The notes beneath the pieces were generated by a model. That model had not been told where the DNA came from. It saw only the letters and a list, made by a program, of their open reading frames with translations, and searched no databases. DNA of 64,000 nucleotides from Albula goreensis (taxonomy: Eukaryota > Chordata > Actinopteri > Albuliformes > Albulidae): assembly GCA_022829145.1 (NCBI GenBank), contig CM040753.1, forward strand, positions 15,266,884-15,330,883, read 5' to 3'. This document shows, one piece after another, positions 5,451 to 62,026 of the stretch (positions are counted from its first letter, which is position 1; each line of letters starts with the position of its first letter). Made by a program: the position numbers and the translations under genes.

Positions 5451-6850
5451 GCAGGTGGAGACCTCACTCATTGTGGCCTGGCGGGCCATGAAGCAGGATC
5501 CAGCGTTGGCAGATGATTATCCCCCATCTGGTTAGCTCCAGATTGGGGCAGCCAGGCTAGCGTGAAGGCTGGAGACTGGGACACTGCACCATGTGCAGGG
5601 GCTCCAACTCTGAGCTGGCAGTTGGCTTGCTAACAGGTCCGTTCGTCCAGTCTGAAAGTTGCCAGTCCAAGCTGCTGGGTCACCTGTAGGGGCTCCTACC
5701 AGTATTACCACAGCTTGTTTTGGTGGTGGGCATGTTTGACCCTAACCCAGTCCACCATTGACAGACAGGGGGGTCTGGACATCAAACCTCCTCTTCATCT
5801 GAGCCTGAGAGCTTCAGACACATGGTCCGGTTTTTTGGAGCTCCATGGTTCTGCATCCTGGGGCCAGCTTGGCACTAAGGCTGTCCAGCGGCAGCTTCAG
5901 ATCCCTCCCAATCATGTGCAGAGCAGGTGACACCCTGGTGGTGGAGTGCTTGGAGGCTCGAATGGTCAGGAAAGCTTGATGCTGAACTGTGCTGAAGGTT
6001 TCCCTTCCTCCAGACAGGGTTGAATTCTTGAGGGTTTTGTTCAGTCTTTCCACTTCCACATTGCTCCCCGGATGGTACACTGCTGTTCTGATGTGTTTGA
6101 TGGACCACTGGGAGAGACACTCTGATAAGTCTGCTGAGATGAATCGGGGTGCACGGAGGGCTTTGAAAGTCTCGTCCATGGTAGAGGCTGCTGCTCTGCC
6201 AGGGTGACCACCACGCTGAGGGGTGCATTGAGCATGTGGACCCAGTCATTGTCACCCTGTTGGTCCAACGGGGTGCCACTTGTCTGTGGCGAGGTAGCCA
6301 CAGAGGCCTGAGCCCTGAGCCACAGGTGTTAAGCAGTGCTGTCAGTGCCTGATGGCCTGTGCAGATGGTAAAGGCTCTGCCGTGCAGATACATTTGCCAA
6401 TGTTTGCAGGTGCACAAGCACACCAGGGCCTCCCTCTCCCTCTCCGAGTACTTCTGTTGGCTGGCGTGAGGGCCCTAGAAGCAAAAGTCACCAGGAACTG
6501 CATGCCCTTGTGAAGCTGGGAGAGTGTCCCCGGTGATGATGGTGAGCGCCATCAGGCTGAAATGTGCCAAAATGGGCAGGGGCGTAAGCTGTTGTTTGAT
6601 GACTTGCACCGCCTCCTTGCAGGCCGGGGTCCAGGCCCATACGGCATCCTTTTACAGCAGCTGGCACAGAGGGGCTGTTGAGTCTGAGTAATGAGGCAGG
6701 AACCTGAGGTAGTAGGTGGCCATCCCCAGGAAGGGACTGGGGGTCTGGGAGGGACAGAATTTTGTTGGTGGGGGACATAATAGGAGTTAAGCCCTCCTTG
6801 GAGCCTGAAACCCAGGAACATGCACTTCTCTGCATTCAGGGTGACATTGT
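5450..6850 (-). mobile_element. decayed Ty3/gypsy-type LTR retrotransposon pol fragment
   Basis: Read on the minus strand, the pieces come in the order expected for gypsy pol. About 6850-6480 encodes the end of reverse transcriptase, including a FLGF-type thumb motif and a following YY..F region. About 6480-6300 encodes RNase H, with the TGHQALTALL segment where intact copies have a Asp-His pair. About 6180-5900 encodes the C-terminal half of the integrase core, with a YHPGSN..VERLNKTL signature. The reading frame breaks several times, at least one stop falls inside RT, and only about 120 bp separates the RNase H motif from the integrase end, where an intact element has several hundred base pairs more. 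No LTRs are visible at either edge. GC is higher than in the flanking DNA, and the borders are estimates from that contrast. It is a dead fossil. Confidence 0.85.
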
Positions 6851-11859: not shown

Positions 11860-11939
11860 TCATTTCCCTCTCTTTCTCTCTGTCTCCCTCCCTATCTCTT
11901 TTTTTCTCTCCTTCTCTCCCATTCTTCTTCATGTTCCAG
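11860..11939 (+). promoter_or_regulatory. polypyrimidine tract and 3' splice acceptor before the nmur1 start codon
   Basis: A CT-rich tract of about 65 bp (TTTCTCTC, CCTCCC and similar) runs directly into TTCATGTTCCAG. Exonic sequence would start at 11940, ten bases before the ATG. This implies a separate, unplaced 5' untranslated exon upstream. The tract also looks like a degenerate CT microsatellite. Confidence 0.6.
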
Positions 11940-11949
11940 TTTCACCACC

Positions 11950-12234
11950 ATGATGGCCAGATATAATTGCTCATCTCCGAACATCTTGTCAACAGTAACA
12001 GACACAACAGGGTGTTACCAGGGGAGTATGTGTAACCACAGCTCTGCATTACCTGCAAATTCCAGCATGGAGTTGTTGGAAGACTTGTGTCTGAGCCAGG
12101 AGGAGTACCTGGAGAAGTACCTGGGCCCTCGCCGCTCCTCTGTATTCCTGCCCGTGTGCATTACCTACCTGGTGATCTTTCTGATGGGGGCAGTGGGCAA
12201 TGTGCTTACTTGCACGGTCATCATCCGCCACAAG
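11950..12234 (+). CDS. nmur1: nmur1 coding exon 1 (N-terminus, TM1)
   Basis: It encodes residues 1-95, ending in IIRHK. The donor is AAG|GTGTGC, phase 0. The frame stays open for 82 more codons into the intron, to 12480, but that part has no family resemblance and is read-through. Confidence 0.93.
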
Positions 12235-15200
12235 GTGTGCCTGGTCAGAACCCTGCCTTTATTCTGTCTAAAGCTAACAACGAGGAAAGCCTGCATCAGG
12301 GTTAATCATGCTGAGGTCTGGAGAGCCACAGTATCAGCAGGAATTAGCTCCACCCAAACAGTACAGCTCCTCATTTCACTCCTTAATTTTCTTGGTCCAT
12401 GCGGGGAGCTAATTAACGAAATCAGGTTGCACAGTGTGTGGTTGGATTCCTGCAGACACTGTAGCCCTCTAGGACTATAGGTGAACAGATTTCATGCCTT
12501 GCAATTAATTTAATGTGGGTTATAAAGAGATGTTTTATAAGGGCTATAATTTTGGTGTCTAAAGACTCACAGAACAATGAACAAAAAGATGATATCACTG
12601 GTCCCACCTCCTCATTCAAAAAGGAGACATGGTAAGGCACACAAAGATTGGCCATATCACTCTTACTGATTAATAACCAACATATTTCAATGAGATAGAA
12701 ACTATAGGTTGTGATCCAGTAGCTGCCGACCCCACTTAAGTCCAGATTGGAATCAGAAAATTTAGACTTTTGCCAATATCAAAATAAATAGCTCACATTA
12801 TTTGTTCATTCCCAATTCTGAAAAATCTTTCAAGGGGTTAGCACCTGAAGCTCATCAGTATTTCACTTTGGGATGTTTAAATTCCTATAATTGTTTTTTT
12901 AAAACAAGACTTGCCCTCAACAGCAATGCCTATCAGTGAGCTGGTGAACGAGAAAGCCAGTGAACAAGAGCAAGTGTAAGGAGCCAGAGACCGACATAGC
13001 CTAGTTCCCATCACCACCATTAACTGAGAAGGTGGGACTGGCAATAGCAGCATCTTCGGCCCCCAGGATGGCGGTGACACCAAAAAACTCACATGACTAA
13101 AACCCATGGGTTATACCCTGGGCAGCTAAACCTACTCACTCCACAAATAAGCTGGGCCTCAAATTGTGTAAAATGCAATGATATGCAGTCTGTAAAATAT
13201 AGTGTTCTTCAAAGACCTTGATGACCAAGTAATATTACTGGACCATCTTGTGTGAAATCACTGGACATCATTTTATTTGAAAACCCATTACAGATAAAAT
13301 AAATAAAACCTGAATTGTATTTCAGGTGTTCCCTGTCCTACCCAGGAACAGCCAGTGTGAGGCTTTTTTTCCAGTCCAGTAATGTAAACCTGATTCAGTT
13401 AATTAAAGGTCTCGATTGAAGATTATGATTCATCAAAATCAAAAGATTGCACCCACACTGGCTCTACTTAGAGAAGACTGCTGACCATCTTTTATGAAGT
13501 GATGGGAGAATTACATTTTACTGACCACAGAATAGAAATGGCATCAGTGACTTAATTACTTGGACTAATGACCACAGTGACTATGAAGAGAAAAACATGT
13601 TTGATTAGTTTAAACAAGTCAGTGAAGACAGCAAGGTGTAACTGCACACTAATGGAGATCATAAACCTTATTTCAGCCATAACTCTTGTCTTGTATTGTA
13701 CTGTATTTATCAGGTGATGCGCACACCCACAAACTACTACTTGTTCAGCCTGGCCGTGTCAGACCTTCTGGTTCTGCTACTGGGGATGCCCCTGGAACTC
13801 TACGAGATGTGGAGCAACTACCCCTTCCTCCTGGGCAAGGGTGGCTGCTACTTCAAGACCTTCCTGTTTGAGACAGTCTGCTTTGCCTCTATCTTGAACG
13901 TGACAGCGCTAAGCGTTGAACGCTACATTGCCGTGGTGCATCCACTCAAGGCCAAGTACGTGGTGACCCGGGCCCATGCCAAGCGCGTGATCCTGAGTGT
14001 GTGGGCGCTGTCTGTGCTCTGTGCAGTGCCCAACACCAGCCTGCATGGCATCCTCTCTCTGAACTCCTCCATCTTGGGCCATCACATCCCAGATTCAGCT
14101 ATCTGCACACTGGTCAAGCCCCGCTGGGTCTACAACCTGCTGATCCAGGTGCCTTTAAGATTACATTTAGCAGATACTCTTATGCAGAACAACTTACATG
14201 AGAACACAAGAACATATGGTGAAGAGAACAGGCCATTCACCCAACTAGTCTTGCCATTTACCTACATTCAAGAATGTCTGTCTGACATACTTTTAAACAT
14301 TGTTCCTTTACACAGAGAAATACTGAAGTAATTAGGGTAAAGTTGCTTTGCTCAGTAGAAATTCTAAGTTATAGGCCCAGCTTCCTAATCGTTATATTTC
14401 ACTGTCACCCAGGTGACCACACTCCTGTTCTTCCTGTTGCCCATGCTCACCATCAGCGTTCTGTACCTGCTCATCGGTCTGCGGCTCAAACGTGAGAGGA
14501 TGCTTCATATGCTGGAAGCCAAGACTAGCCTGCGAGAGGACAGCTACTGCAACATGCGGAACCAGCAACAGAAAATGCGCCGCAGACAAGTCACCAAAAT
14601 GCTGTGTGAGTCCATGTCACTTTTTCATTTTACAAGCTTCTCAGAAGAAATGAAAACTCAATATAGAAAAATCTTTCCCAATTAAAGCTTTTTTTGCCTA
14701 ATTGAAGGCAATGACTGCCATCCAGGTTGATTACAAATCTGTGTTCGAAAACCGCACACTGCACACTGCATATTGTGTACTGTGTACTGCATACTACACC
14801 AGTATATACTGCATACTGCATGCTATTTTTAGTATTGTATACACTCGCCATTATCAAAATGTCTTACCTTTTCGTGGTACGAGGTAGCCAAGGGATGTTA
14901 ACAGTTAATCGGTTAACTGTTATTCGTAATAAGAAAGTTGATTGACTAATTTAAATATTAATAGATATTAAACACTTACATTTCAAAAAACATTTTCAAT
15001 GAATAACCTTATGTTAGCTATTACATTTTGTTGCTCATCAAAAATATCACCACCCAGACATGAAAACTCTTAAATATAACATGTGGGGACATTGCTTTCA
15101 GTTGCAACTTTTCTCTTGCAACCTGGGAACGTTGTTTCATGGCACCAATGAAGGAAGCATAACAAAATAGCATATGGGAATAATGCCTATTAGTGGTTAT

Positions 15201-18200
15201 TGTGTGTGCAGGGTCTCACGGCACATTATATTTATTCCTAATAGGCTTTGTTTGCGGTCTGTATTGCTGATTTTTCAGTCCAGGAATCCGTAGTTCATTT
15301 ATTTTTTTTGTTTGACTTAATGGCCTTTATACAATACAATCCATTTTACTGTTAATGATTGTTGCCGCTTGTTGTAATAAAACCACTCTGATACAGGACT
15401 ACACAACTCATTTAATGGTATTTTGAGTCATTCATCGATTAATACTTTAATTACAGAATGTAGTAAATTCAGATTTTATTTGACAGATGAATGAATTTTA
15501 AATGAATTTAAAAACGAATTTTTGTTCGTCAAAGGTTTACCTCCAAAATGATCTGTGACATATAAAAACGCAATTCCTTATGGGATATAGTAGGCGAGGT
15601 TGACTGTTCTGATGTATACTAGCAATATTTTTTGAAATCTGTATATCTTCTGGGTATCTTTGGCATACTGGAATTTTCATTTTGTTCGCATACTGCATAC
15701 TACATACTACATTTCTCTCAAAATCAGTATGTATTTGTAGTGTGGTATGCAGTTTCGAACACACCTAATGTCTCAGTACATCTGCTTCTTTCCCAGAAAC
15801 ATCCTCAATACAGGATTCTAAATGGAGAATTCTTAATAATTCTTTGAATTAAAGAAGGGACTGTCAGTACCTAAAATCCCAAAAATTAATAATAATTTAT
15901 TGTAATGTTTATTATGCTATATCATTAGAGAAGAGCTCCAAGGCACCTATCTTTTTCCAAACAGAAACACTGACAAATGTATTACTACTGTGGTTCATCA
16001 GTAATTGAGGAAGAAAGTGGGCAGTGTGTTATGAATGTTTATCATTTATAGAATATGTCATTATTTTGGAAAATGGAAAATCTACCGCTTCTCTGAGCCC
16101 TTCAATTACTTTGAGCTGTATGCTACGTAAACATGGAACATTAAAATCAAAATAGAAAATAGTCCTTTGAAAATAACTGTATTGCCTATTTTTCTATTTA
16201 AATAATTAGGTTTACCACAGTGATTGGATAGAACCAGAAAGAAAAGCTAAGTCTGTTTGCCATGAAAGCAGGCTCAATGTGAAAGCTGGAATGGCATCAG
16301 CAGAGGGTTCCGATGCTTTACATGGTCTCTGTATGCCTGTTGTTTGTGTGTACATCTAACTGACATGTATGCACAGGAAATATTTAAGGTTATGATTATG
16401 ATAAAAAGACAGATAGATGCAAGCAGACAGACAGATAGATCAATACTTAAGTGGGTTGACCTCTTTTCAAACAGTATAATCATGAACAAGTTATAAAATG
16501 AAAGTCTAAAATGCACTTATAATAATACGCAATAAAAATAGAATAATGCACAATAATGCATAATACAAAATAATAAAACAAATAAAAATAGTTTTTTACA
16601 TTCTTTTTTAATTGTGAATTTGAATATGCATTTTGTTTACTATAGCATTCCTCTCCCTGAATATGCCTTGTAGAGCTGGAAGAAATAAAACCCATACTAC
16701 CATCGTGTGTAGAGTTCAGTTTACTCATTGGGTTATATGAGGGTAGATGACTGATGATGCTGACATGTGAGTAGCACATTCCATTTGTATAAAAGCATGG
16801 TAATGATTCAGAAGTTCAGATTCTCTCTGGATAAGCTATTATCGTTCAAAAAACACAAAATAGATAATGGCGATGATACAGTGCTGCACCTGACAACCAA
16901 TTTCTTCTGAATAGTATTTTGTGCATCTCAATTTAGTGGCATCTTGAAATTTCAGCTATTAGTTCTATACATCTTGGAGCAATTATTTAATGTCTGTTAC
17001 CCTCTTGTTCCGCACCTTTGACATTTTTACTATAATTTAACAGTGGCATGTTTCTTCAGTTCTACAGTTTAACTGCTTAATTGACGTAGCTAGTACCTGA
17101 AGAGTTCTTTGCAAATTGGCTGTTAGCATAAATATGACAGAGGCTGCATAAAATCTGAATTTCTCCATAGTGTATGGGTGTTAACTATAGGCAGTTAGCT
17201 CCACCATGTCCAATGCTCTTTATTACATACTTAATTGGTTCATATACTCTCTGTGTGTGCCCACAAGAGTGAATGCTTCTGCCTGGCCTTGGCCTTATTA
17301 AAGTGAAGCTTGGCATATGTTCAGAAATGGACTTAAAATGTTAAAGCAACTGCATTTATTACTGTGGCTAGTGTAACAGGTGCAGTTGTTGAATTGGTCA
17401 GTTTTCTTTCTTGTGGTGAACAGTGCCCACACCAATGCCTTTAATTATTTTGTCACTCAAATTAGCAATCAGTATATGCTAATCAAAATTAGACCTAATT
17501 ATAGTTGTTTATAGACTATACATAGCAATATACTCTGATGAGCCAATAATACAATTTAATACAAGTAAACTGTATAAAAACTATTGTACATAAAACAGTC
17601 AAAAAAGGGAGAACAGCCAAATCTTCACATGGTCTGAGCTGCTCATGAGGATGACAATCGAGGACATACGCTGTCTGAGCGATATCTTTTTTTAATTCTA
17701 CTGCGGAAAGGTTTAGAGACAACTCAAGGCCAGCTCTGGCTGGTCACAGTGATGTGAAGCGACATTGCCTGTGCTGAAAAAGGCTGCATAGCCGTGAGCT
17801 TTGCAGGAAATAAGCAGTGATTGTGTCAGCTTTTCCTCACTTGTCTCCAGCATCCATCTGTAATGGAGCAGCACTCTCCACAGACATGATTCTATTATGT
17901 TCCCAAAAAGTGTAATCCATTTAAGTGGCAAGTCCAGCTGTGTTGTTGTAGCCAATTTAATGCAGTTCAATTTGTGTGTGAATCTGGCATTGCAGCAACA
18001 AATATGATACAATTCCAATACTCAGCGTTAATCAGGATGCTCAGATCAGATTGTTTATTGCACTCAACAATGTTTGTGCCATTCTCAATTTTACACAGTA
18101 AATGGCATATAAAAGCTCATTTTTACATGTGTGTCATTGTAAAATGCATCATCCCCCTATGAAGCAGGTTACAGATTTCAATGTATGTAGGAGTCAGAAA

Positions 18201-20889
18201 GAACTGTTCAGCATGTGGAGAAAAAACAACGTGCTGGAAAAACATATCAAGATTAATTTTTATGCATGCTGTATAAACAAATCCCATGAGCCTTTCAATA
18301 AATAACTGCTCTCTGTACCAGGGCAGAGAAATGGATGCCTTGGTGCCCTGAAATTCAATCGGATTATCCTCTTTCCGATCATGGTCTTTGTTGATTATTA
18401 TTTTTTGCCTCCTGCTTCCTGCTTTGCAGGATCTAAATTGGAGAACTCTAGAATCCAGAGAGTTCTGCATACAGATGTGAAGTGTTATTATTACATGCTG
18501 CCCACTACAGAGGATGCAGTATCTTTGTTGGGTGGACATTAATTCACAAAGAGTTCATGCTGCCAGTGTAAATGAATCTTGTGGCCCAGAAGCAAAGATA
18601 ATAATTCTCAGAGACTGAAGTGTAATGCTGAGACTGAGAGCTAATTATGCTGTATTGTGACACCTAATTATTGCTTCCATAGGAAATTTTTTGAAGTGAG
18701 CATGGATTTCAGAGTTGTCTCTCTGGTAATGATTAGATAAAACTGCTGAGTGATGTTGGAGAGGAGATATCAGCTGCTTATTAGCACTGGCATCCAGCCA
18801 GTTTAGCATCAGGGAGCTCGTTTGGAATTGCATGTTTAATCTGTGCTGCATGTTATATCAGAACTACCTTGATTCTCTAGACTATATGGTCTTTTCTTGG
18901 GTCAAAGATAAGGCAACAAAGGCTCAACCAAAAGTGAAGCAACAAGCTGCCCTTTTTAATGGTAACTGATTAAAACATTTTAGTCACCTTATAGGCCATA
19001 GACAAGGGAACAAGGGGACATGTTTTTCATCCAGATTAGCTCCACATTGCACCAAATCAAAGATCAAAGTCCCCATTTCTGACACATCTACAGTATTCAT
19101 CCAGGATAGAGTTGAACTTATTTTCCACTGGTAAGATTCAACTTCCCTGTGTTAAATAAATTTATGCAAAATAACTTCAATAAGTGTGTCGCTTTGTGAT
19201 GTTTCAAGGAACCAATTGTCTGCTGTTTGTTTAATAGAAATCTCTTAGAATAGACAATTAAAGGATAATAAGGGAGTATCATGGTTTATTATTCCCAACT
19301 GCGATTGTTTAACTGAATTTAAGAAAGAACATTAAGAAAGCTCTCTTGTGTGGAATAAGCAGAAACTACAACAAGAAAAAGGAGTAAGTTTGAAGTTCAC
19401 AGCTAGGGACAGACTTACAATTAACACAACAGGTGCTAAAAGTTACAAAACAACAGCCTCAAAATGACCAAAGAACTGCCTCTCAGTTATATACATACCT
19501 CCAAGACTCTGCCTCAATGAATACGAAGTACAGATTAATGGTAGGGAGACCATTCAGGGTCAGCTTTTCAGCATAGTCAATGGGCATAAATACATGGCCT
19601 GGTGCAATGAAAAGAAACTGAAAGAGAGTAATATGGTTGAATGAGTTTTCCTTATTCTTTTTCCCACAAAGTACAGAAGATCAGTACAAAGCAAATTATG
19701 CAAATAGTTAGTTATTCTCCCAAATTCAGAATTCCAAAGCCTTTGGTGGGACATGCAAAAAAAAAAAAATGCTTGTGCAAGCCTTGCACATCATGGCTGG
19801 AGGTTCAACATGGGTACCGGAGTCATACTATTACTGGCTATGGCCAGAGGTCTGCTTTGGGGAGACAAGTAGTGAAAGAAAATACTGCTTACTTTAGATT
19901 TCAAACTTCAGATCCATAATGCTGTAAAATGTTATATTACAATACTACTGGCACATCCTTCTAATTGTTTTCTAAGTGATCAGTGCACCCATTATTATAT
20001 TGATATTCATTCCTTTCCAACAGATTAGTCAATAATAGCGGCATTCAATCCATATTTTAACTGCACAAGTTAACTGCATCTCAAATTAAGAACCATTTTA
20101 CAAGAGACTGTCAAAGGGCACTTTAATTAAATTCATTCATTATTTTAATCCCTATTCCATGAATGCCCTGAGTTATGAATGAACCCTGCTGACCTGAGAA
20201 TTCTATTCACACTCATTTTTACATGGAAAAGTTGCACTACTTTATAAAATGTAAGCAGTGTGTTATGGCCAACACACTAAGGACAAAGACTTAGAGAGGA
20301 TGTGAGTGATTGAGGTGGTTTGTCTGCCCCAATCACAGAAACATTCAAATCATTGAAACTATACATGCAAAATGAGTGTGTATGGGTGCATGGATTCATT
20401 TCTGTGAATGTTTTAGCGTGCAAGTTTGTGCACCTGACTGTGCATTTGTGCTCTCCCCTTTGAAAAACAGTTCACACATTTGTGTGTTTGCTTCTCCCAG
20501 TTGTCCTGGTGGTGGTGTTTGGCATCTGCTGGGCTCCCTTCCACACTGACCGCCTGATGTGGAGCTTCATTGACCACTGGACCAGTGACCACCTGGAGGT
20601 CTTCCAGTACGTGCACATCATCTCTGGAGTCTTCTTCTACCTGAGCTCCGCTGTCAACCCCATTCTCTACAACCTCATGTCCACACGCTTCCGTGAAACT
20701 TTCCGAGAGGCCATGTGTCAGCGCTCCCATCGCCCAGCAACCAGGAAGCACTCATTGAGCATCACTCGGGTAACGCTTCGCAGCACTGTTTGTGACAATC
20801 CGCCTGGGAACGGAATGCCTCATTCAGACGGGGAGGATTGTGACATTTACCCAGAATGCCACCAGGAGCATGAGACCACTGTAGCTTGA
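11950..20889 (+). CDS. nmur1: neuromedin-U receptor, NMUR1-like class A GPCR (four coding exons, 433 aa)
   Basis: This is a seven-transmembrane receptor for the neuropeptides neuromedin U and neuromedin S, a plasma-membrane protein coupled mainly to Gq. The coding exons 11950-12234, 13714-14148, 14413-14605 and 20501-20889 total 1302 nt, and all phases agree (0, 0, 1). Visible landmarks are N-glycosylation sites at Asn6, Asn29 and Asn37; Asn84 of TM1; Asp112 of TM2 in LAVSD; the Cys140-Cys226 extracellular pair; ERY at 164-166 ending TM3; Trp192 of TM4; Pro250 of TM5; CWAP at 314-317 in TM6; and NPILY at 357-361 in TM7. The segment [20 protein letters not shown] is shared by NMUR1 and NMUR2. 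[29 protein letters not shown] and the RSTVCD-like tail favour NMUR1. The length is close to human NMUR1 (426 aa). The start is the first of two adjacent ATGs in a CCACCATGATGG context. No damage is seen. Confidence 0.93.
12235..13713 (+). other. nmur1 intron 1
   Basis: 1.48 kb with no recognised element. The acceptor at the 3' end is TTTATCAG before GTG ATG CGC. Confidence 0.8.
13714..14148 (+). CDS. nmur1: nmur1 coding exon 2 (TM2 to start of TM5)
   Basis: Residues 96-240, from VMRTPTNYY through YNLLIQ. It includes the TM2 Asp, the ERY motif and both ECL cysteines. Acceptor CAG|GTG and donor CAG|GTGCCT, both phase 0. The donor lacks the usual A at +3, so it is weaker than average. Confidence 0.95.
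14158..14200 (-). repeat. 3' tail of an L2-type SINE/LINE inserted beside a splice donor
   Basis: Read on the minus strand this matches the widespread fish L2-clade tail (the AAGAGxATCTGCTAAATG type). It begins about ten bases inside nmur1 intron 2. The motif was recognised from memory of the family, not from an alignment. Confidence 0.6.
14413..14605 (+). CDS. nmur1: nmur1 coding exon 3 (TM5 to ICL3)
   Basis: Residues 241-304 plus the first base of codon 305. It contains the TM5 segment with Pro250 and a basic third intracellular loop ending RRRQVTKML. Acceptor CCCAG|GTG and donor CTGT|GTGAGT, phase 1. Confidence 0.93.
14606..20500 (+). other. nmur1 intron 3 (5.9 kb)
   Basis: It carries the inverted-repeat element at 14740-15763 and, around 17.7-18.9 kb, a long stretch without recognisable repeats that may contain conserved regulatory DNA. 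No nested gene is supported. A 138-codon minus-strand frame at 18123-18539 has no splice signals or family resemblance. Confidence 0.7.
14740..15763. mobile_element. non-autonomous DNA transposon with TGTGTTCGAAA terminal inverted repeats
   Basis: The left end TGTGTTCGAAAACCGCA (14740) is mirrored by the right end TGCAGTTTCGAACACA (ending 15763). Both ends are followed inward by many copies of ACTGCATACTAC-type subterminal motifs, in opposite orientation at the two sides. Near 14899-14920 is an internal palindrome, AACAGTTAA / TTAACTGTT. No transposase frame is left inside the roughly 1-kb body. No convincing target-site duplication is visible, so the superfamily is uncertain; the subterminal repeats suggest hAT. 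Confidence 0.6.
20501..20889 (+). CDS. nmur1: nmur1 coding exon 4 (TM6, TM7, C-tail)
   Basis: Begins after TTCTCCCAG with the last two bases of codon 305 (Phe) and reads [14 protein letters not shown], then TM7 with NPILY. The cytoplasmic tail of about 70 residues has Cys377 as a possible palmitoylation site. It stops at TGA 20887-20889. No canonical AATAAA follows closely; an ATTAAA lies at about 21183. Confidence 0.94.
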
Positions 20890-50041: not shown

Positions 50042-50096
50042 ATGACTCTCTTCCAGCGGGTCCTCACTCTCACTCTGCTCCTGCTTCTGTACAAGC
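50042..50096 (+). CDS. pdcd1: pdcd1-like exon 1 (signal peptide)
   Basis: MTLFQRVLTLTLLLLLYK plus one base of codon 19. Donor AAGC|GTAAGT is strong, phase 1. The hydrophobic core is Leu/Thr-rich and cleavage is expected near the start of exon 2. Upstream, at 49946-49950, is a GGAAA core that could bind NFAT; this is speculative. Confidence 0.8.
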
Positions 50097-53000
50097 GTAA
50101 GTCCTTTTTTTTTACTTCCTTTTCACTTTTAGTAATGTCATTCATAAATGCTGCTCTTGTGTCACCCTGGTTTCAGGTGAGGTACTCAAATATTTATTTT
50201 TTAAAAATGTTCTTTTCTTACTTTTTAAATCAACATCTTTGATTTATCACAGTTTCAACAGCCAAGTGTTTATAAATTGTGCAGGCTGGTGTAGAGTACA
50301 TTATAACTTTTTTATTGACTATATATAACTATACACTACATACTATATATGTACTTATAGTCCATATAACATTGTATATAGACTATAAGTACATGAAACA
50401 ATAATTTTAAATGGCAGTCACAATCTCAAATAATTTTAATAGGTTTGATGTAGCATTAAAGAATGTTTTCATATGTTTTATCATTTGATTTAGCCAACCA
50501 AGGACTTACTGAATGCTGTGGACAGAGTAAAAAGTATATAGGTTTCCCCATGACAAAAATATGAATGTAAATTAATAACTGTTCGATAAAATATGTTTAA
50601 TATGAAATTGTACAGCACCAGAATGCTTGGAGAATTCACAACAGACATGTGTATGATGAAAAAACTTAAATTAAAAAAAAACAAGTACTAAAGATATGTG
50701 TGCCTGGGAGAGAGACTATAAAGATACACTGAGATAAAACCCACTTATTTCTGTTTCTCTCTGTCATGTTCTCCCCTCATGGAAAATATGACAAAGTGGC
50801 ACTACAAGGTTCTGCATATTTCTACCTCTTTTCTTTGAATTGCACCTTAGTTTTTCCTGAAACTTTCTTTTGTAATACAGTAAGTTTCTATTCCATTTAT
50901 TGGATGCAAGATTCAAATCAACTCAACTCATACTTCTTGAAATCTTTGTTTTGTCATGTTTTTGTAGATGAGTAAGGAGACATGGTAGTGACTCAGCTGA
51001 GGTGTTGACCCCTCAGTGGTTCTCTAACTTGAGGTTGATTGTTAGATTAGATTACATGTGGCAAAAATGAACCTTCCCCCAAACACTAACAGTGAAAATA
51101 ATCATCAGACTTGGATTGTGCAACCCTAGTGTTTTGATATATGTCAGGCTAACATATGCACCTCTTAACCACACAGTGCATTTCCCATGTAATAGACTTT
51201 TGGAAGTCTTATTTTTATGCCTCAAATTCACTTATGCACTGTGCAATTCAGGTATGGATTCAGTCTGTTCCAGACAATTTCAAATAATGGGGTCCGATTA
51301 CCATTGAGTTTGTGCAGTAATTGCTGGTTATGTCAGCTTCAAGTTTTCTTTGTGCTGACATATCTTGTCCTGAGCTATAATTGTGTGCCTTGTGATTAAG
51401 AACTTTTTGTTCATTTGAATAAGGTGTCAAAATAAATATTTTATTGTTACTTTATCTGGAAGGATCTCATGCAATTTCCAGATTTTGAATATCACCCAAG
51501 TCACTGCATGTTTGGTGTATCTTAATGGTTGGGTAGATTGGCTTGTAAGGCCAGGGTTTCAGATTCAGTTCCAAAATGGGCACTGCTGATGTACCTTTAC
51601 TAAGGTACTTAACCCAAAGTGCTTCAGTAAATATCCAGCTGTATGATAAGAAATAATACAGATAATAATTTCTTGTTTATTCTCAATCATAAGAAGTCTG
51701 TTATTTTATTCTAACAATTGTTGTTGTGTTTTTAACATATGATGCTATTTACATTTGTAATTATATAATATGTATATACAGGTTTCAAAATGATTAGCGT
51801 CTTTTTTCTCAGTACTTGGTGCAGCCTCATGTGTTAAAGAAGGACCTTTGCCATAATGTTTAATACGTTTGGAAAACACATCTGATTTGGGGGATCCTGA
51901 TCTGTTCTTCCTTGCAGAACCTTTCAAAGACCTTAATGTCTTTACGTATATGTTTAGGACTTCAAATCAGACCACAGGCTTGCTTGTTTGTTTGTTTGTT
52001 TGTTTGTTTGTTTGTTTGTTTGTTTGTTTGTTTGTTTGTTTGTTTGTTTGTTTGTTTGTTTGTTTGTTTGTTTGTTTGTTTGTTTGTCCAGTGATGGATG
52101 ACTATTTTTAAGGGTCACTGCATCAAATTATATTAAATATTATATCATTATAAATAATAAGATACTTTATTGTCATAGAGTTCATGATTCCAGTGATCTT
52201 AACAAGGACCCCAGGACCAATGTCAGCCCCATAAGATCAAAGATCCATCACAGTAGTATAGGTAGGTGTGAGGTTCCTCTCTGCATGTGCTTCCATCTTC
52301 TTACACCAAATTTACCATTAGTGTGCAAGGAACTGAGGAACTCAGTCTTGGGCTGCGTTCCAATCCTTTTTTTCGTCTCCTCCCCTCCTTTCCTACCCCA
52401 GAAATATGCCGGAAATATGTGGAGGAAAGGAAGGGAGGAAACGAGTGGAGGAAAGGAGGAAAGGAGGAGATGAATCGAAAATTGGAACAGCTAATCCGAT
52501 TCGCCCGTCATCAAAGTCGATGTCGGCTATTGATGAAGTAATAATTTCGACTGACTCTGAAGATAACAAAGCCAATCAAAATATTCTGTGGGATGGTCTT
52601 TTAACCTGACTGGTCATGAGCACAATGATGTCACCCAGAAATGTGAAAACACTTCCACGGTAGGATACATTGATGTATCCTCCGTTTGGAGGAAACGAAA
52701 AAGGAGGAAAGGAGGAGGCGAGATTTCGCTTTGGAACAGTGGAGGAAAGGAGGACACATAATCAGCTTCCGGGGCACGGAGGAAAGGAGGGGAGGAAAGG
52801 AGGAGATGAATTTGAGTATTGGAACGCAGCCTTGTTGTCTTTTGATCACATGTCCTTGTGGTCCAGTGGAAGTGCCAGAGGCATTTGTCAAACTCCAAGA
52901 CACTTCAATTTGTTTTTTGCATGCAATAATGGCTTTCTTATGGCAACCCTTCCGGATAGACCGGCATGGATTTGGCATCTAGTGTTTCAATTGGAGACTT

Positions 53001-56000
53001 TCATTCTCATTAATGGCTGAAGTTGTCTTTGAGATGCATTAAAATTCAACAGGTTGGATGTGAGGCTTGGTGAATGATTCTTATAGCGGCTTTACAGCAC
53101 ACCAAGAGGAATTTGACAAAAAAAACTGATTTACTTAATATCCAGTGCTTCTGCAGATTGCTAATACAGTTGACACCAATATTATATTAACAGAACATTG
53201 CTCCTTGAAAATGTACATTTTCCTCAACAAATTTATTTACATTTATATTCCTTGTTTATCTTTCACAGTCTATTAGTTCATCTATATCAAGGGTGCCAAA
53301 ACATCGGAGATGATCTTAGTATTATATTTTAAACAGTTTTTTTTAGAATAATTGTATTATTACACAGCATTCTCAGTCTGAGCATAAAATGATGTTTTTT
53401 AGGCCTAAGTGTTGTTTATTTTGTAAAGCCTTTTTGTTTATCTCACTCAAGGGCGCCAATAATTCTTGACTGTATGTCTCAGAAATTGTCCAGATTTTAA
53501 TGTTGTAATGCATGTCAAGTCAAGATATGGATGCCATGGACACTGAGTGCTGTAACCATGTGTCACAAATATGTTCTGTGCTTGGAATCTCCCTGTATTG
53601 CTGTGCTTCTGCCAGACTAACCGCATTAAAGTCTGAGCCGTGCAGGTCCTGAGAGACAGGAAACACTGCGGGATGGGGTTAGAGACTCGCCGCTTTTCAA
53701 CATCCTGGCAAAGCGCGTAATCACAAACACACTCTCACATACAGAAATGTCTCTCTGTCTCTCCCTGCTTCTCCCCCCACCCCCAATCTCTCTTTCTTTC
53801 AATTTCAAATTCAAGGTGCTTATTTCGGGAAATTCATCAATAAATATTGCCAAAGTGACATGGCAGGCTAAAATGTTTGCAATAAGTGTGCAACAACTGG
53901 GGTATTTATTCCCTCTCAAAAATAATTTCTCATTAGTGAGGAAGAAGTTTTGTTTAATATGTGAAAGTATTGTGGAAGTTTTTTTTATGTTTTATGCAAT
54001 AAAAGAGGAACTGCATGTATGTCTGCACACTTCCAGTTTTACTGTAGCCACACATTCACAGTTTGTTTTTTATACCAGTGGTTTTTGGTGTCTGCCTGTG
54101 TCAGCTGCAAAAAAGGGGTTGGTGAGCTCAATCAGTAGGGTCACTTAAAATCAGCTTTATTGGAATGGTAATTACGTGCTTCTCAAAAGCACAAAAATAA
54201 CGGCACATTCAGACACAAGATTGCAAAAATGGATGTGGGTAAGATGTTAGCTATTAAAACAGACTATATATCAATGATAATAGTTGTAATCACAAAGCAT
54301 AGCAACAATAAAAATGAACCTGTCCATTTAACCGGACAGGTTACTGAAACAGACTGCATCATCAGTTGAGAACATGGCCCTAAAGCTGGGTGAGATGAGG
54401 AATGCAGTCGATCCCCAGGAATCTGAAGCAAAGTGCCACATTACAAATCAGCTCCAGTACCAACTGTCATTTCTGCAATCACTTGTTTACATTTATATAA
54501 TCAATATTTTAAATGGGTATCAGTAATAACTGAGAAAAATCGATAGATGATGAGTGTGAGCTCTGAGTTAGAATTAGATTAGAAGTTAGAATTTATAAAG
54601 GAACCTGATGAGCAGGATGCCTCTAATGAATGAAATGCTTGTTTTTCCCTACAAATGTCAGAGAGGATTACTTTTAACTTTCATTATTAATGAAAAAGTA
54701 TGTCTCTTTTCAGCCTTATTTTGCATAGATGGTAATCAAAGTAACAAGCAGCTAGATACTTGCAGCTTAATGTCATGGTAAAACAGATCGATTTCATGGG
54801 ATTTGGGAGAGGATTCTTGAAAAGGCATAATGTCACCAATACTTCTCATAACATGCACAGTATTCTCATTTTTTAAACATACTAAAACCATTTTTATTCC
54901 CTTATATTTCTGATCAGATCACATCCAGGCAGTGGAGATTGAGAGGATAACTGGAGATGAAGTCAAGATCCTGTTCTCATTCCAGAACCAGTCTTTTCCT
55001 TATGTACAGAATAAACAACATTCCATAAATGTAAACGATATTGTGAATCTGTACAAAAATGATAAGAAAATTGTGGAGTGTAGCCCACGCTGCACAGACA
55101 GTCGCTTTATGTTATTTCATTCTCGGGAAGTCAGCCTTAGCATCACAAACCTGACACCTTCAGACTCTGGGGAGTACTACATTGCACTGATGCTCAAAAA
55201 TGAGGCCCCAGTGGAGAGTGAGAAAATATCCCTCCTCATTCACTCCAGGGAAACAATCACAGGTAAGTGGCCAGTCTGTTTCCTCATCAAAAACATCTAA
55301 CATCTCCTCATCAAGGAGCCTCGTGAACAGTAGTGTTAACATAACATGAATATTCAAGTTTCATGTTGTTCTTAATTGAAATGAGGGATTTTGATTTGAT
55401 TTTTTTGTTTGCATCACAAAATTAACAGCACAGATTACCAAACCTGGTCCCTGAGCAATTTTGTAATGTGATGTATTACAGTAATTTGTGGAACATGTAA
55501 CATATTCTGCAATGCATTTTACATGTCATGCAGCACATATACTGAACTATATCAAAAAATATCCATCCATGTAGTTGTAAGCTACTCTGCTGAAATGGTT
55601 TCCTAGATTTCTAGAACTTAAGATGCTCTGAATCTTTGCCATCATATTTCCAAATGTGAAATAGATTTTTGCTGTTGTTTTGGTCACATAAAATAATGTT
55701 TTGAAAACTTGTAATTGAGAGGTTGAAGGTTTCAGCCCCAGGTATCCACTGGCATCAGACCTCAATCCATCTATTTAAATTGCTTGTATGTGGCATAATG
55801 TAAGTCTGTGGTAAAAGTGGCTGCTTAAAAGGGAATGTACAAACCTTACTTCCCCCTCCACCTCTAGGGACTCCCTCAACCTCTTCTGCAAGCACAAGGC
55901 ATAGCTTCCATGAGCCCTCTATCTCTGCATCCTCTGCTCGCCTTTATATCATTACTGCGCTGGTGGTCATCGCCATGGTGATGCCCATTGTACTGATCAA

Positions 56001-58270
56001 CTGGTTCTGCCTGAACCAAGGGAGAAAGTCAGGTGAGGAGGGTCCTGCCACACTCCACAGGACTGACTGGGGCCATGGACTGTACTCACTCTGAAGAGAT
56101 GCAGGATATGCTGTTTTTTGTTGATACTCAGAGCCTAATTGATCATTTCACACACAGTTGACCCACTCACAATGTCTGTTGGGTCTGAACTAGTTGTTGA
56201 TTTTTTGGTGAAAATAAAAGGCAACAGAATCTGTATCTCTCTGTGGCCAGGGCAGACAAATCTCTGCTATAGATGCATCAGCTATTCAGCTCATTTATAT
56301 TCTACTGTCCTCTTTCCTTTTACCACAGGAGCATTTTGTAAAGTGATTTACTTTACAGGTTTTTGCTTTAGAACAGCATTAAATGCCTGATTTAAGCAAT
56401 GGAATGATCATCGTGTCAGTACAGCTGAATCAGGTGTTTTTATTGCTGGAAAAATCCCTGTGCAATAACGCATTACTGAAAGAGAGCTTGTTACATAACA
56501 GTGTTTTATAGCTGACAATATAAATTGCCTTTATTCTATAGTTTGGTTTGAGGAGACTGTTAGCTCCAATTACCATTTAGATACTGTGTCTTCATATCAG
56601 AACTGCTTTGACATTGTAAGGAGTTTGGGACTGAGTGTGAAATTCATTCATACTTATTCAGCATCATTCACTTTCAGCTGACGATTGCTTCATTTAATAT
56701 GTGTAGCTAAAGGAAAAACTGTTGGAAGGAAATATATGCTTTGTTCAGAAAAGCTGCAGTGAATTCAGTGTGCCCCCATGATTCACATTTAAGCGAAGAC
56801 ATAACGCCTAAACATGAATGACTCATGAACCAGAATGTCATTGATTCTTTTATCTGAGGATATCCATGCAGATAATTATTCAAATATGTGGAAAATGGCT
56901 TCTATATGCCCATGATTCACTAGAAAACTGATTTTTATTAGCGAAGGTGTAGGGAAAATGTAACATGTGACCATTTGTGGTTGAAAACAAAAGTCCCCCC
57001 TTCGTCAGCTATCTGGTATAGGTGGAAACCAAGCTTTGAAGCAATAAATGACAGAAATAATTGAAAACTCCTTTTTTGCTTCGTTGCAAGATTAATAGGG
57101 CTCACACAGTGACTGCAATAAGCCTATATCTTGAACAGCAGGCATGTTTTCCATAGGCAAAATAAAGTAGCATTATCTACCTCGCCACAATGAGGTCACA
57201 CTCTGCTGATGATGTCAGAGTAGACAAAGGAGGAGGGCCCTCTGATAATATTTAGTTCTTTACTCTCGACTTTTGTGGGTAGGTCACTGTAGAGAATGCA
57301 ACCAAAGTAACATGAAGTTGTGTCACACAGAACCACAAATTCAAAAGCATACACTCCAACTCTGGACCACCACATTATCCTGACCTGGCATAAACTCACC
57401 ATCTGATCTGAATATTAGCTTTGCCATTTAGCTTTTAATGAATTAGATCAGGATATGGTGAGGGGAACACTGATCTAAGATCAGGACACTTCATGGACAC
57501 TAGCCCTGATTACCAGAAATTCTCCTTTTTTCTACAGATACCCAGCAGCCCCAGATATCCGGCCCAAAGTGTGCGGTAAGCTCCTGCCTTGACTTCACAC
57601 TGATACCACCTCACTGAACACTTCCCAGCCAGAATGATGGAGGGGCTCCCAGACACAGCTGTTGCTCCACTAGCATTTTGTTTGTTAGCACTTGCTACAG
57701 TGATCAGCAAATGGACAGCTGAGCCAGTGAAACACTGGTAGACTAATAGCTGTTTCAGAGGTGGACAGCTAGAGCACCACTGCATTCTTCCTGGCTGGGC
57801 TTGGTCTTCTTTCTCCCTGTCTTTTCATTGAGTGCTTTTTCTTCATCATGAAGATGCATCCATGTTGTCAAAACAAACCTGAGAAGCTTCAAATGATTCA
57901 AAGTGAATCTGTAGGACTTTGTGCAGCTCTATTCTTGGAGAGTCAGTGTGTACAGGAAGGTTTCATTGAGGTGTTAAGGGGTTTTGTGCTCTCTCTGCAG
58001 GTGACCAGTGAGGCCTCCAGTTCCAAGCCTGTGTGTTCCATAGAGTATGTCATGCTGGACTTCCGCAACAGACCAGGGGGAAAGGAAGGGAACAGGTGGA
58101 GCGAAGCCAGCCTGAAACCTCAGGACAGTGTGGAATATGCCACCATCACCTTTCACCCCACACAGCCAGGGCCAAGAGTGGCCCAGGCGGAGCTGAACAC
58201 TCCAACAGAATCCATCCCCAGGATGTCTGCAGACACATCAGTAATCAGGCACAATGTGAGAAGACTTTGA
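50042..58270 (+). CDS. pdcd1: PD-1-like inhibitory Ig receptor (five coding exons, 290 aa)
   Basis: A type I membrane receptor, best read as programmed cell death 1, the lymphocyte checkpoint receptor that recruits SHP phosphatases. Exons 50042-50096, 54918-55262, 55868-56032, 57538-57575 and 58001-58270 total 873 nt; phases (1, 1, 1, 0) agree and all borders are GT-AG. The layout of signal / Ig / stalk+TM / tiny linker / tail, and the length, match mammalian PD-1 (288 aa). Residues 1-18 are a hydrophobic signal. The V-like Ig domain spans about 24-127 and contains DSGEYY and N-glycosylation sites at Asn42 and Asn96. TM is 159-182. The tail has exactly two tyrosines: Tyr217 in IEYVML (ITIM) and Tyr247 in VEYATITF (ITSM core, as EYATIVF in human). 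The canonical Ig cysteines are absent: Phe38 and Ile107 occupy those positions, and Cys73 and Cys77 are the only ectodomain cysteines. Another CD28-family or ITIM-bearing receptor is the main alternative. Confidence 0.8.
50349..50394. repeat. 14-bp perfect inverted repeat in an AT-rich patch
   Basis: ATGTACTTATAGTC and its exact complement GACTATAAGTACAT enclose 18 bases. The surroundings (50318-50395) are full of TATA/ACTA motifs, so a simple-sequence origin is likely. Confidence 0.85.
51525..51665 (+). repeat. tRNA-derived-type SINE (L2-tailed family) in pdcd1-like intron 1
   Basis: Contains, in order, TTGGCTTGTAAGGCCAGGGT, GGGCACTGCTGATGTACC, AAGGTACTTAACCC, GCTTCAGTAAATATCCAGCT and GTATGATAAGAAATAA. 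This is the diagnostic order of a widespread teleost SINE body as I recall it. Confidence 0.7.
51983..52087 (+). repeat. TTTG tetranucleotide microsatellite
   Basis: About 26 near-perfect TTTG units. It gives a spurious (Leu-Phe-Val-Cys)n frame. It lies 0.26 kb upstream of the MITE. Confidence 0.97.
52350..52831. mobile_element. MITE with GGCTGCGTTCCAAT terminal inverted repeats
   Basis: GGCTGCGTTCCAAT at 52351 is mirrored exactly by ATTGGAACGCAGCC ending at 52831. Inside each end lies an AGGAGGAAAGGAGG-type purine tract, oriented so that the ends form long imperfect inverted repeats; more copies of the purine motif occur internally. The flanks both show TTG, consistent with a 3-bp target-site duplication as in PIF/Harbinger elements. 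There is no transposase. The two closely related halves make long open frames that are artefacts. Confidence 0.85.
54918..55262 (+). CDS. pdcd1: pdcd1-like exon 2 (Ig domain)
   Basis: 345 nt, symmetric phase 1-1 as typical for Ig exons; residues 19-134. Acceptor TTCTGATCAG. A second acceptor 15 bases further on (AGGCAG before 54933) would also keep frame and remove five residues. Donor CACAG|GTAAGT. The frame runs 12 codons into intron 2 before a stop at about 55298-55300. Confidence 0.82.
55868..56032 (+). CDS. pdcd1: pdcd1-like exon 3 (stalk and transmembrane)
   Basis: 165 nt, phase 1-1. A Ser/Thr-rich stalk of about 24 residues is followed by YIITALVVIAMVMPIVLI and a Trp-Phe-Cys edge. Acceptor CCACCTCTAG, donor TCAG|GTGAGG. 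The exon is symmetric, so skipping it would give an in-frame protein without a membrane anchor. Confidence 0.82.
57538..57575 (+). CDS. pdcd1: pdcd1-like exon 4 (38-nt linker exon)
   Basis: Encodes the end of codon 189 through Ala201, DTQQPQISGPKCA. Acceptor TTTTTTCTACAG, donor GCG|GTAAGC. It shifts phase from 1 to 0. A tiny exon at this position is a hallmark of the PD-1 gene, whose human exon 4 encodes about 12 residues. Confidence 0.78.
58001..58270 (+). CDS. pdcd1: pdcd1-like exon 5 (cytoplasmic tail)
   Basis: Residues 202-290, after the acceptor CTCTCTGCAG. Holds CSIEYVMLDF and, 30 residues on, DSVEYATITF. The human PD-1 tyrosines are 25 residues apart. The tail ends VRRL and TGA at 58268-58270. 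Confidence 0.85.
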   Translation: MTSEASSSKPVCSIEYVMLDFRNRPGGKEGNRWSEASLKPQDSVEYATITFHPTQPGPRVAQAELNTPTESIPRMSADTSVIRHNVRRL

Positions 58271-60706: not shown

Positions 60707-61600
60707 TATTATTATTATTTTTTTAATTTAACCTTTATTTCACCAAGTTCGTCCCATTGAGATTAAAATCTCTTTTACAAGAGAGACCTGGCCAAGAAAA
60801 GCAGCACATCAAGTTTCAGACAAAACAAACCAACATAAGCATTAAAAAATACACAAAAAGAACAATGACAAGCAGAAGTGCAACATACAATCAAGTGCAA
60901 AAGCAATCAATTTCCAGCTAACAAACATTTGCAATTCCCAATAGACTCTATTTCCAAACTCTTAACAATAGTTTTAAATTCACTAAGTGTGACTGAGTCC
61001 AGAAGTTTTAACTCTTTTTGCAGGCTATTCCAGGCAAAGGGTGCAGAAAACATGAAGGCCTTCTTGCAAAGCTCGGTGCGAACTTTAGGATCAGCCATAG
61101 GCAAACAGGCATGAGACCTTACTCTATAACTGCCTCCACATTTTTGAGACAGTTAACCACATAAACAAGAGGGACATTTTCCTAAAATGGCCCTATAAAT
61201 AAAACATGCCAGTGACAAAGTCTTCTTATGGACAGAGCAGGCCAATTGATTTTGGAATATACTGTACAATGATGAGTGAGGGCTCTGTTATTAGTAATGA
61301 ACCTCAAAGCCCCATGATAAGCAGTATCCAACATATGAAGACAATGACTTGCAGCATTCGTATATAACAAATCACCATAATCAAGAACAGGCATAAAAGT
61401 TGTTGCAACCAATCTCTGCCTGGTAACAAATGAAAGACAAGGTCTGTTCATAAAATAAAACCCAAGTTTTAACTTATGCTTATGTATCAGGTGTTGAATA
61501 TGAAGCTTAAAAAAGAAGCGATCATCAACTAAAATTCCAAAATATTTGTGAGTGGAAACAACTTCAATTTTCTTTAACAACTCCCATTGCTTTAGCATTT
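60707..61600 (-). mobile_element. 5'-truncated non-LTR retrotransposon (LINE) 3' end
   Basis: On the minus strand 61598-61182 encodes the C-terminal region of a LINE reverse transcriptase, with YFGILVDDRFFFKLHI, VLDYGDLLYT, ALRFITNN and a following THHC and WPALSIRR. After a stop and frame change near 61105-61190, 61104-60907 continues with the typical C-terminus (AFMFSAPFAWNSLQKELKL). The 3' end is an ATTTTAATCTCAATGGGAC block and AAATAAAGGTTAAA with an A-rich tail. No 5' part is present, which is normal for incomplete reverse transcription. Confidence 0.85.
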
Positions 61601-62026
61601 GTTTTCAGACTGAAATAAAATGAAGGTACAGAAGTAAACAGCATTAAGACTAACTAAGACTAGCCCAGCGTGCTAGTGGGTGTGTATGTGTGTGTGTGAC
61701 AGAGCTCTGGAAAAAAAAAGACATAAGCGTAGCCATCCTGTTTGCTGAAGTATCAGCAGAGTCTGGGACAGGTGCAAGGAGATCAAAAACAAAGCAATCT
61801 TAATTAGTCACCAGCACTCCGCCCCCTGCTTGTGCTTTCCAGCACGCTTTGACTGCTTGCTTCTCACCCACACCTTGTCCCGCAGCTGCTACGGTGCAGG
61901 CCAACGCACTGTTCCAAAAAAACTGTTCATTACACTACAACAACATCCACACACCAGCACAGCTACTCATTGTATCCAGCCTCTAATCTCACTTGTAAAA
62001 TAAAACTTTTTAGTAATGCATTGTAG

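Follow-up and report, generated by a model that had tools for sequence, protein, structure and literature searches.

Our analysis identifies what is very probably the PD-1 (PDCD1) orthologue of a bonefish, Albula goreensis, an inhibitory receptor that most likely acts in T cells. The gene lies in a stretch of 64,000 nucleotides (hereafter the window; C13:15266884-15330883 of a genome of 932 Mb in 208 contigs). PD-1 is the T-cell brake that is targeted by cancer immunotherapy. The tail motifs, the exon plan, profiles of the whole protein and of the tail, and one neighbouring gene all support PD-1, which the preliminary description of this DNA had proposed. Furthermore, a second intact PD-1 gene was found on contig C24; the window gene is called copy A and the C24 gene copy B throughout.

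The five exons of the window gene lie on the forward strand. Exon 1 (50042..50096, 55 nt) holds the start codon and a hydrophobic leader peptide and ends in phase 1 at the donor AAGC/GTAAGT, and exon 2 (54918..55262, 345 nt) encodes an immunoglobulin (Ig) V-like domain without the canonical cysteine pair. A Ser/Thr-rich stalk and the transmembrane (TM) helix are encoded by exon 3 (55868..56032, 165 nt). Exon 4 (57538..57575) is only 38 nt long, as is its counterpart on C24, and exon 5 (58001..58270, 270 nt) encodes the cytoplasmic tail with IEYVMLDF (Y217), VEYATITF (Y247) and the stop codon. All four introns are of the GT-AG type, with phases 1, 1, 1 and 0. The product of 290 amino acids (aa) comprises one V-type Ig head, a stalk, a single TM segment and a cytoplasmic tail (leader and TM segment judged by eye), and the two tail tyrosines are spaced 30 residues apart. 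The human PD-1 gene is likewise split into five exons, the fourth of them tiny, and the tail tyrosines of its product are 25 residues apart. When the coordinates and features were re-checked, the earlier claims of five exons with matching phases, a 290-aa product, a 38-nt exon between the TM and tail exons, and a tail with exactly these two tyrosines all held.

This gene model is real and beyond chance, as confirmed by the independently predicted protein JZ751_025087 of Albula glossodonta (208 aa, 98% identity). It starts inside the Ig exon, crosses three of the four junctions and is identical to the window protein at 204 of 208 residues, including 68 of 68 in the tail stretch compared. Across the join of exons 1 and 2, the proteins of Aldrovandia and Megalops run through with similar residues. 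The suggestion that the gene may be unannotated was correct only in part: A. glossodonta does have an annotation, but as a shortened 'hypothetical protein' without a name. Within intron 1, a stretch of 481 bp (52351-52831) is bounded by 44-nt terminal inverted repeats (GGCTGCGTTCCAAT...) that are 77% complementary; judged by eye it is GGAGGAAA-rich and resembles a short non-autonomous DNA transposon.

For PD-1, the published consensus is (I/V)(D/E)YG(E/V)L(D/E)F for the immunoreceptor tyrosine-based inhibitory motif (ITIM) and (T/V)EYATIx(F/Y) for the immunoreceptor tyrosine-based switch motif (ITSM) (Kondo et al. 2025, PMC12151841; this paper and Quiniou et al. 2024, PMC11599192, are cited here for selected passages). 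VEYATITF matches the ITSM at all eight positions, whereas IEYVMLDF fits the general ITIM form (S/I/V/L)xYxx(I/V/L) and six of the eight positions of the strict PD-1 form. Profiles of the full length, the tail and the ectodomain were built from seven elopomorph proteins and compared with human PD-1, TIGIT, CTLA-4, ICOS, BTLA and CD28 and with 2000 region-wise shuffles of PD-1; this comparison of six receptors stands in for a full tree of fish PD-1 and other Ig receptor families. The full-length profile gave 24.6 bits for PD-1, 9.1 for TIGIT, 4.1 for CTLA-4, 2.6 for ICOS, 1.0 for BTLA and -1.6 for CD28. Since the best shuffle reached 5.2 bits, TIGIT likewise exceeds the shuffles. With the tail profile, PD-1 scored 24.1 bits (best shuffle 8.5), TIGIT, ICOS and CTLA-4 fell below 0, and CD28 and BTLA were unreported. 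The five other receptors share a V-type Ig head, a TM segment and a signalling tail with the window protein, and BTLA tyrosine inhibitory motifs too, but none of them exceeds 9.1 bits with the full profile or 0 with the tail profile. Human PD-1 shares the domain order, the exon plan, the tail motifs and the equivalents of Y68 and K78, although its identity to the window protein is 22% or 33% depending on the alignment and V replaces the ITSM threonine in the fish protein. Adding a row for human PD-1 to the profile gave matches to PD-1 structures (E 1.6e-38); this result was circular and was discarded.

The surroundings of the gene were read by eye in 101 stretches from a codon-score scan of the window with 90 kb upstream and 110 kb downstream. 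An NMUR1-like gene occupies 11860..20889 on the forward strand (frames 11860-12480, 13642-14331, ~14404-14616 and 20464-20889; exon ends approximate), and one of its exons matches the solved neuromedin-U receptor 1 with an E value of 4.5e-66. Its frames end at ~20.9 kb, about 29 kb upstream of PD-1, in agreement with the distance first given for nmur1; this gene proved a useful hint, as an NMUR1-like gene lies upstream of both PD-1 copies. An APH-domain kinase-like gene follows further upstream. Downstream of PD-1 lie three sets of 5-HT3-receptor-like (HTR3-like) exons, a Rubicon-domain gene (RUBCN; PF13901, 81 bits) and, at 62 kb, a TSC22-family gene (PF01166, 91.7 bits), which we take to be TSC22D2 from its N-terminal exon, read by eye. 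TSC22D2 is listed among the PD-1-linked genes in the legend of Figure 1 of PMC12151841, and the published PD-1 neighbourhood markers include TSC22D2, PCYT1A, DYNLT2B and others. The TSC22-family gene is the one published marker found near the window gene.

Several observations weigh against the PD-1 assignment. The window ITIM departs from the PD-1 consensus at pY+1 (V) and pY+2 (M). With the ectodomain profile, TIGIT (8.8 bits) and CTLA-4 (5.9 bits) outscore PD-1 (2.3 bits; best shuffle 1.5). The fish-only profile, searched against solved structures, had no PD-1 chain among its best 60 of 402 matches, with CD2 at the top; the window protein itself gave weak Ig matches only (best E 0.034), which were of no help in the family assignment. 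The best PCYT1A matches lie not near the window gene but on C11 and C24, the C24 match at a distance of 3.5 Mb from copy B. DYNLT2B was not located by a Tctex-1 search with 10 matches, only one of which was properly read; that match, on the right strand, is apparently not DYNLT2B, two others were dropped for lying on the wrong strand, and seven, among them one on C13 10.5 Mb away, are unread. Finally, the window protein has lost the canonical Ig disulphide (the C54-C123 pair of human PD-1), the core tryptophan (W67) and the N116 glycosylation site. Because the ectodomain profile and the structure search fail to discriminate, the PD-1 assignment rests on the tail, the exon plan and the neighbourhood. 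In Kondo et al. 2025 (PMC12151841), ray-finned PD-1 was likewise found through its tail motifs.

An Ig head that does not discriminate between families would also suit another inhibitory receptor of the CD28 family with an ITIM/ITSM-like tail, for example CD28HL3. This receptor is on record from bichir, gar, sterlet, carp-like fishes and catfishes; it too possesses a V domain, and many species show [I,V]xYxxL and VTYxxV in its tail (PMC11599192). We consider this identity highly improbable for the window gene. The V domain of CD28HL3 has a YxC motif, the cysteine of which is I in the window protein, and the second tail motif reads VEYATITF as opposed to VTYxxV (PMC11599192). Moreover, CD28HL3 adjoins prkab1b, pla2g1b and tmem233 (PMC11599192), whereas the neighbours identified here were NMUR1, RUBCN, HTR3-like and TSC22-family genes (those three were not searched for).

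The Ig head of this PD-1 scores 23.7 bits with Pfam V-set, just under the cut-off of 26, whereas the Megalops relative clears it with 28.3 bits. The V-like domain first described is present as a V-type head, but its canonical cysteines and tryptophan are gone: in the alignment columns of human C54, W67 and C123 stand F, L and I, and YYI takes the place of YxC. The window protein keeps G47, Y68, K78, I110, D117, G119, Y121 and L142 (human numbering), and all of these except Y68 are kept in every fish sequence covering the respective column. The PD-L1-contact residues Y68 and K78 are, therefore, both present in the window gene. Tarpon PD-1 is described as keeping the structural residues G47, I110, D117, G119, Y121 and L142 together with the same two PD-L1 contacts (PMC12151841). 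At N116, which in PD-1 carries the glycan bound by galectin (PMC12151841), the window protein has S; an NLT sequon stands at its residues 96-98 (exon 2), 4 residues ahead of that column.

With the cysteine pair, the tryptophan and the N116 site gone, the window gene might be a decaying or ligand-blind receptor that has lost its Ig core. This appears very unlikely, as two Albula genomes carry an open frame, with the near-identity given above, and the V consensus is described as partly lost in ray-finned PD-1 generally, with expression highest in T cells as in mammals (salmon, zebrafish and nurse shark spleen; PMC12151841). The canonical C23 and W41 are also absent in sterlet, gar and teleost PD-1 sequences (PMC11599192). 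Because both papers, in the passages cited, describe degraded V domains, an Ig head without the canonical core is a known trait of fish PD-1, and the canonical cysteines and tryptophan do not define PD-1 within ray-finned fish.

A genome search with the tail exon reached four places at E <=10, namely its own locus, C24:20248628 (E 2.3e-4) and a further two that were weaker and were taken as chance. The match on C19 (E 0.1) contains one stop and lies opposite a frame that by eye is scavenger-receptor-like, and that on C23 has an E value of 5.9 (locus unread). At the C24 site, copy B is an intact gene (C24:20240696-20248804) of 259 aa, with phases equal to those of the window gene and about 33% protein identity to copy A. 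Its exons, all on the forward strand, are a leader exon (C24:20240696-20240756, donor CAG/GTAAGT), an Ig exon (C24:20245674-20245988; matching the window protein at E 8.6e-7 when 13 kb were searched), a TM exon (C24:20246550-20246723), exon 4 (C24:20248093-20248130, 38 nt) and a tail exon with VQYGVLDF and VEYSTITF (C24:20248613-20248804). Directly upstream of the Ig exon there is an in-frame ATG, but it was not accepted as the start codon, since the conserved acceptor and the leader exon 4.9 kb upstream fit better. The upstream leader is preferred because the independently predicted A. glossodonta protein JZ751_014377, 92% identical to copy B over its full length, starts with that leader. A match of the C24 Ig exon to the Aldrovandia protein (E 5e-13) was set aside because its alignment enters the rejected stretch.

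The two PD-1 genes sit in a duplicated block, in which NMUR1 (+), PD-1 (+), RUBCN (-) and TSC22D2 (-) follow in this order on both contigs. The respective positions are 15280594, 15316925-15325153, 15364510 and 15387015 on C13, and 20192885, 20240696-20248804, 20262390 and 20289945 on C24. RUBCN has two matches in total, the C24 one (96%) being the best after the window's own. For NMUR1, C24 is second-best (87%) among 150 scored matches, mostly other receptors, and the third is on C14 (72%). For TSC22, with seven matches, C24 is the best after its own locus (70%), other family members reaching 57-69%. Among the four block genes PD-1 is the most changed. Between NMUR1 and PD-1 on C24, a butyrophilin/B7-like Ig V exon in which the canonical cysteines are present was also seen (C24:20226181-20226582); the forward frames around it gave no match to the window at E 0.01.

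Homologues of both copies were found in other fishes. A first large protein search gave two matches at E <=1e-3 among 854 candidates, JZ751_025087 and AAFF_G00003820 of Aldrovandia affinis (53% identity to the window protein), and a tail-region search returned two candidates, both already known. A last search gave five proteins at E <=10 among 4015 candidates, adding JZ751_014377, MATL_G00031160 of Megalops and ANANG_G00123870 of Anguilla. All five proteins reached by the large searches are elopomorph. A tree of seven sequences separated the window gene, JZ751_025087, Aldrovandia and Megalops (A) from the C24 gene, JZ751_014377 and Anguilla (B) with support 100/100. When a very distant human row was added, the B clade kept 95/99 and the A side did not resolve. 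By this tree, the PD-1 duplication is older than the divergence of the sampled elopomorph orders.

The two genes would, in our reading, both descend from the teleost genome duplication, an origin that is only inferred because the protein searches reached no non-elopomorph teleost. The rival origin is a later segmental duplication within the elopomorph line; as all sequences found are elopomorph, the tree dates the split no more closely than to a time before the sampled orders separated. We consider such a later event unlikely. Four genes are doubled in equal order and orientation, the PD-1 proteins are only about 33% identical, and a duplication confined to Albula (the Albula copies held together) was rejected by the approximately unbiased (AU) test with a p value of 0.00023, a test that was run after the first tree had been seen.

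The copies differ in which motifs have changed. Each of the four A copies fits the ITIM consensus at six of eight positions and, except for tarpon with seven, the ITSM consensus at all eight; they carry the inhibitory motif YVML and, apart from that one tarpon residue, keep the ATI of the switch motif. The three B copies match seven or eight ITIM positions (YGVL in bonefish, YNVL in eel) and seven ITSM positions, with YSTI as the switch motif. Among the PD-L1 contacts, K78 is kept in all six copies covering the column, whereas Y68 is kept in all three A copies that cover it and is V or H in three of three B copies. Judged by sequence, copy A keeps both PD-L1 contacts with an ITIM off the consensus, and copy B is nearer the ITIM consensus with one contact lost. 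According to preferences quoted in PMC12151841, the N-terminal SH2 domain of SHP-2 accepts I at -2, V at +1 and L at +3. Because these residues of YVML fit, the motif should still dock SHP-2. In contrast, a G to A change at pY+1 promotes SHP-1 recruitment (quoted in PMC12151841), and, by analogy, V at this position may shift the choice of phosphatase.

The proposed function follows the mammalian receptor. PD-L1 on another cell would engage the Ig head of PD-1 while the T-cell receptor is active, and Src-family kinases would phosphorylate Y217 and Y247. VEYATITF would then bind SHP-2, or its relative SHP-2L, at the C-terminal SH2 domain, and IEYVMLDF would bind the N-terminal one and open the phosphatase, so that T-cell signalling would be damped. 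Expression, ligand binding and signalling of the bonefish copies are presumed on this analogy. A candidate ligand gene, PD-L1-like, lies at C1:42021399-42022104 and ranks first among 42 matches to human PD-L1. It shows 39% identity over the IgV domain (E 1.1e-16), and an IgC-like match (E 0.0017) follows 164 bases beyond the IgV exon. Its frame holds GGADYK, a stretch of human PD-L1.

Elsewhere in the window, two frames resembling parts of mobile elements were observed on the reverse strand. A broken retroelement integrase-like frame (5814-6245) matches rve_3 with E 7.8e-4, under the family cut-off, and a frame at 61182-61604 by eye resembles the C-terminal part of a LINE reverse transcriptase, with no Pfam match at E 0.01.

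Until 2024-25 PD-1 was thought to be confined to tetrapods (PMC12151841). The remark in the preliminary description that PD-1 is elusive in ray-finned fishes is outdated, fish PD-1 having been published by Quiniou et al. 2024 (PMC11599192) and Kondo et al. 2025 (PMC12151841); because of this, the window gene belongs to an already known kind. It resembles the fish PD-1 of these papers, as far as the cited passages describe it, in the single Ig head with a degraded V consensus, the stalk and TM segment, the ITIM- and ITSM-like motifs with V at ITSM pY-2, and the linked TSC22D2. It differs at ITIM pY+1 and pY+2, where V and M fall outside the published consensus, and in being one of two copies. 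The main-text passages of both papers on duplication and paralogs (figures and supplements being outside this scope) mention no PD-1 pair, and literature listings, with most subscription journals outside their coverage, held no other fish PD-1 paper by title. As far as seen, therefore, the second intact PD-1 gene and the paired copies with differently changed motifs are apparently unreported.

The window gene adds a complete example of PD-1 from an early teleost branch, and its surroundings give a lead for annotation in other fishes, in which PD-1 can be sought between NMUR1 and RUBCN/TSC22D2. It is conceivable, though we hold it only tentatively, that elopomorphs kept both PD-1 genes of the genome duplication and that the copies divided the PD-1 job, A with the contact tyrosine and B with the ITIM nearer the consensus. 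If true, comparing A with B would offer a natural experiment in which ligand binding and phosphatase wiring come apart. If both copies are expressed, a central immune checkpoint would be duplicated in these fishes, with its ligand-contact and signalling motifs changing separately.

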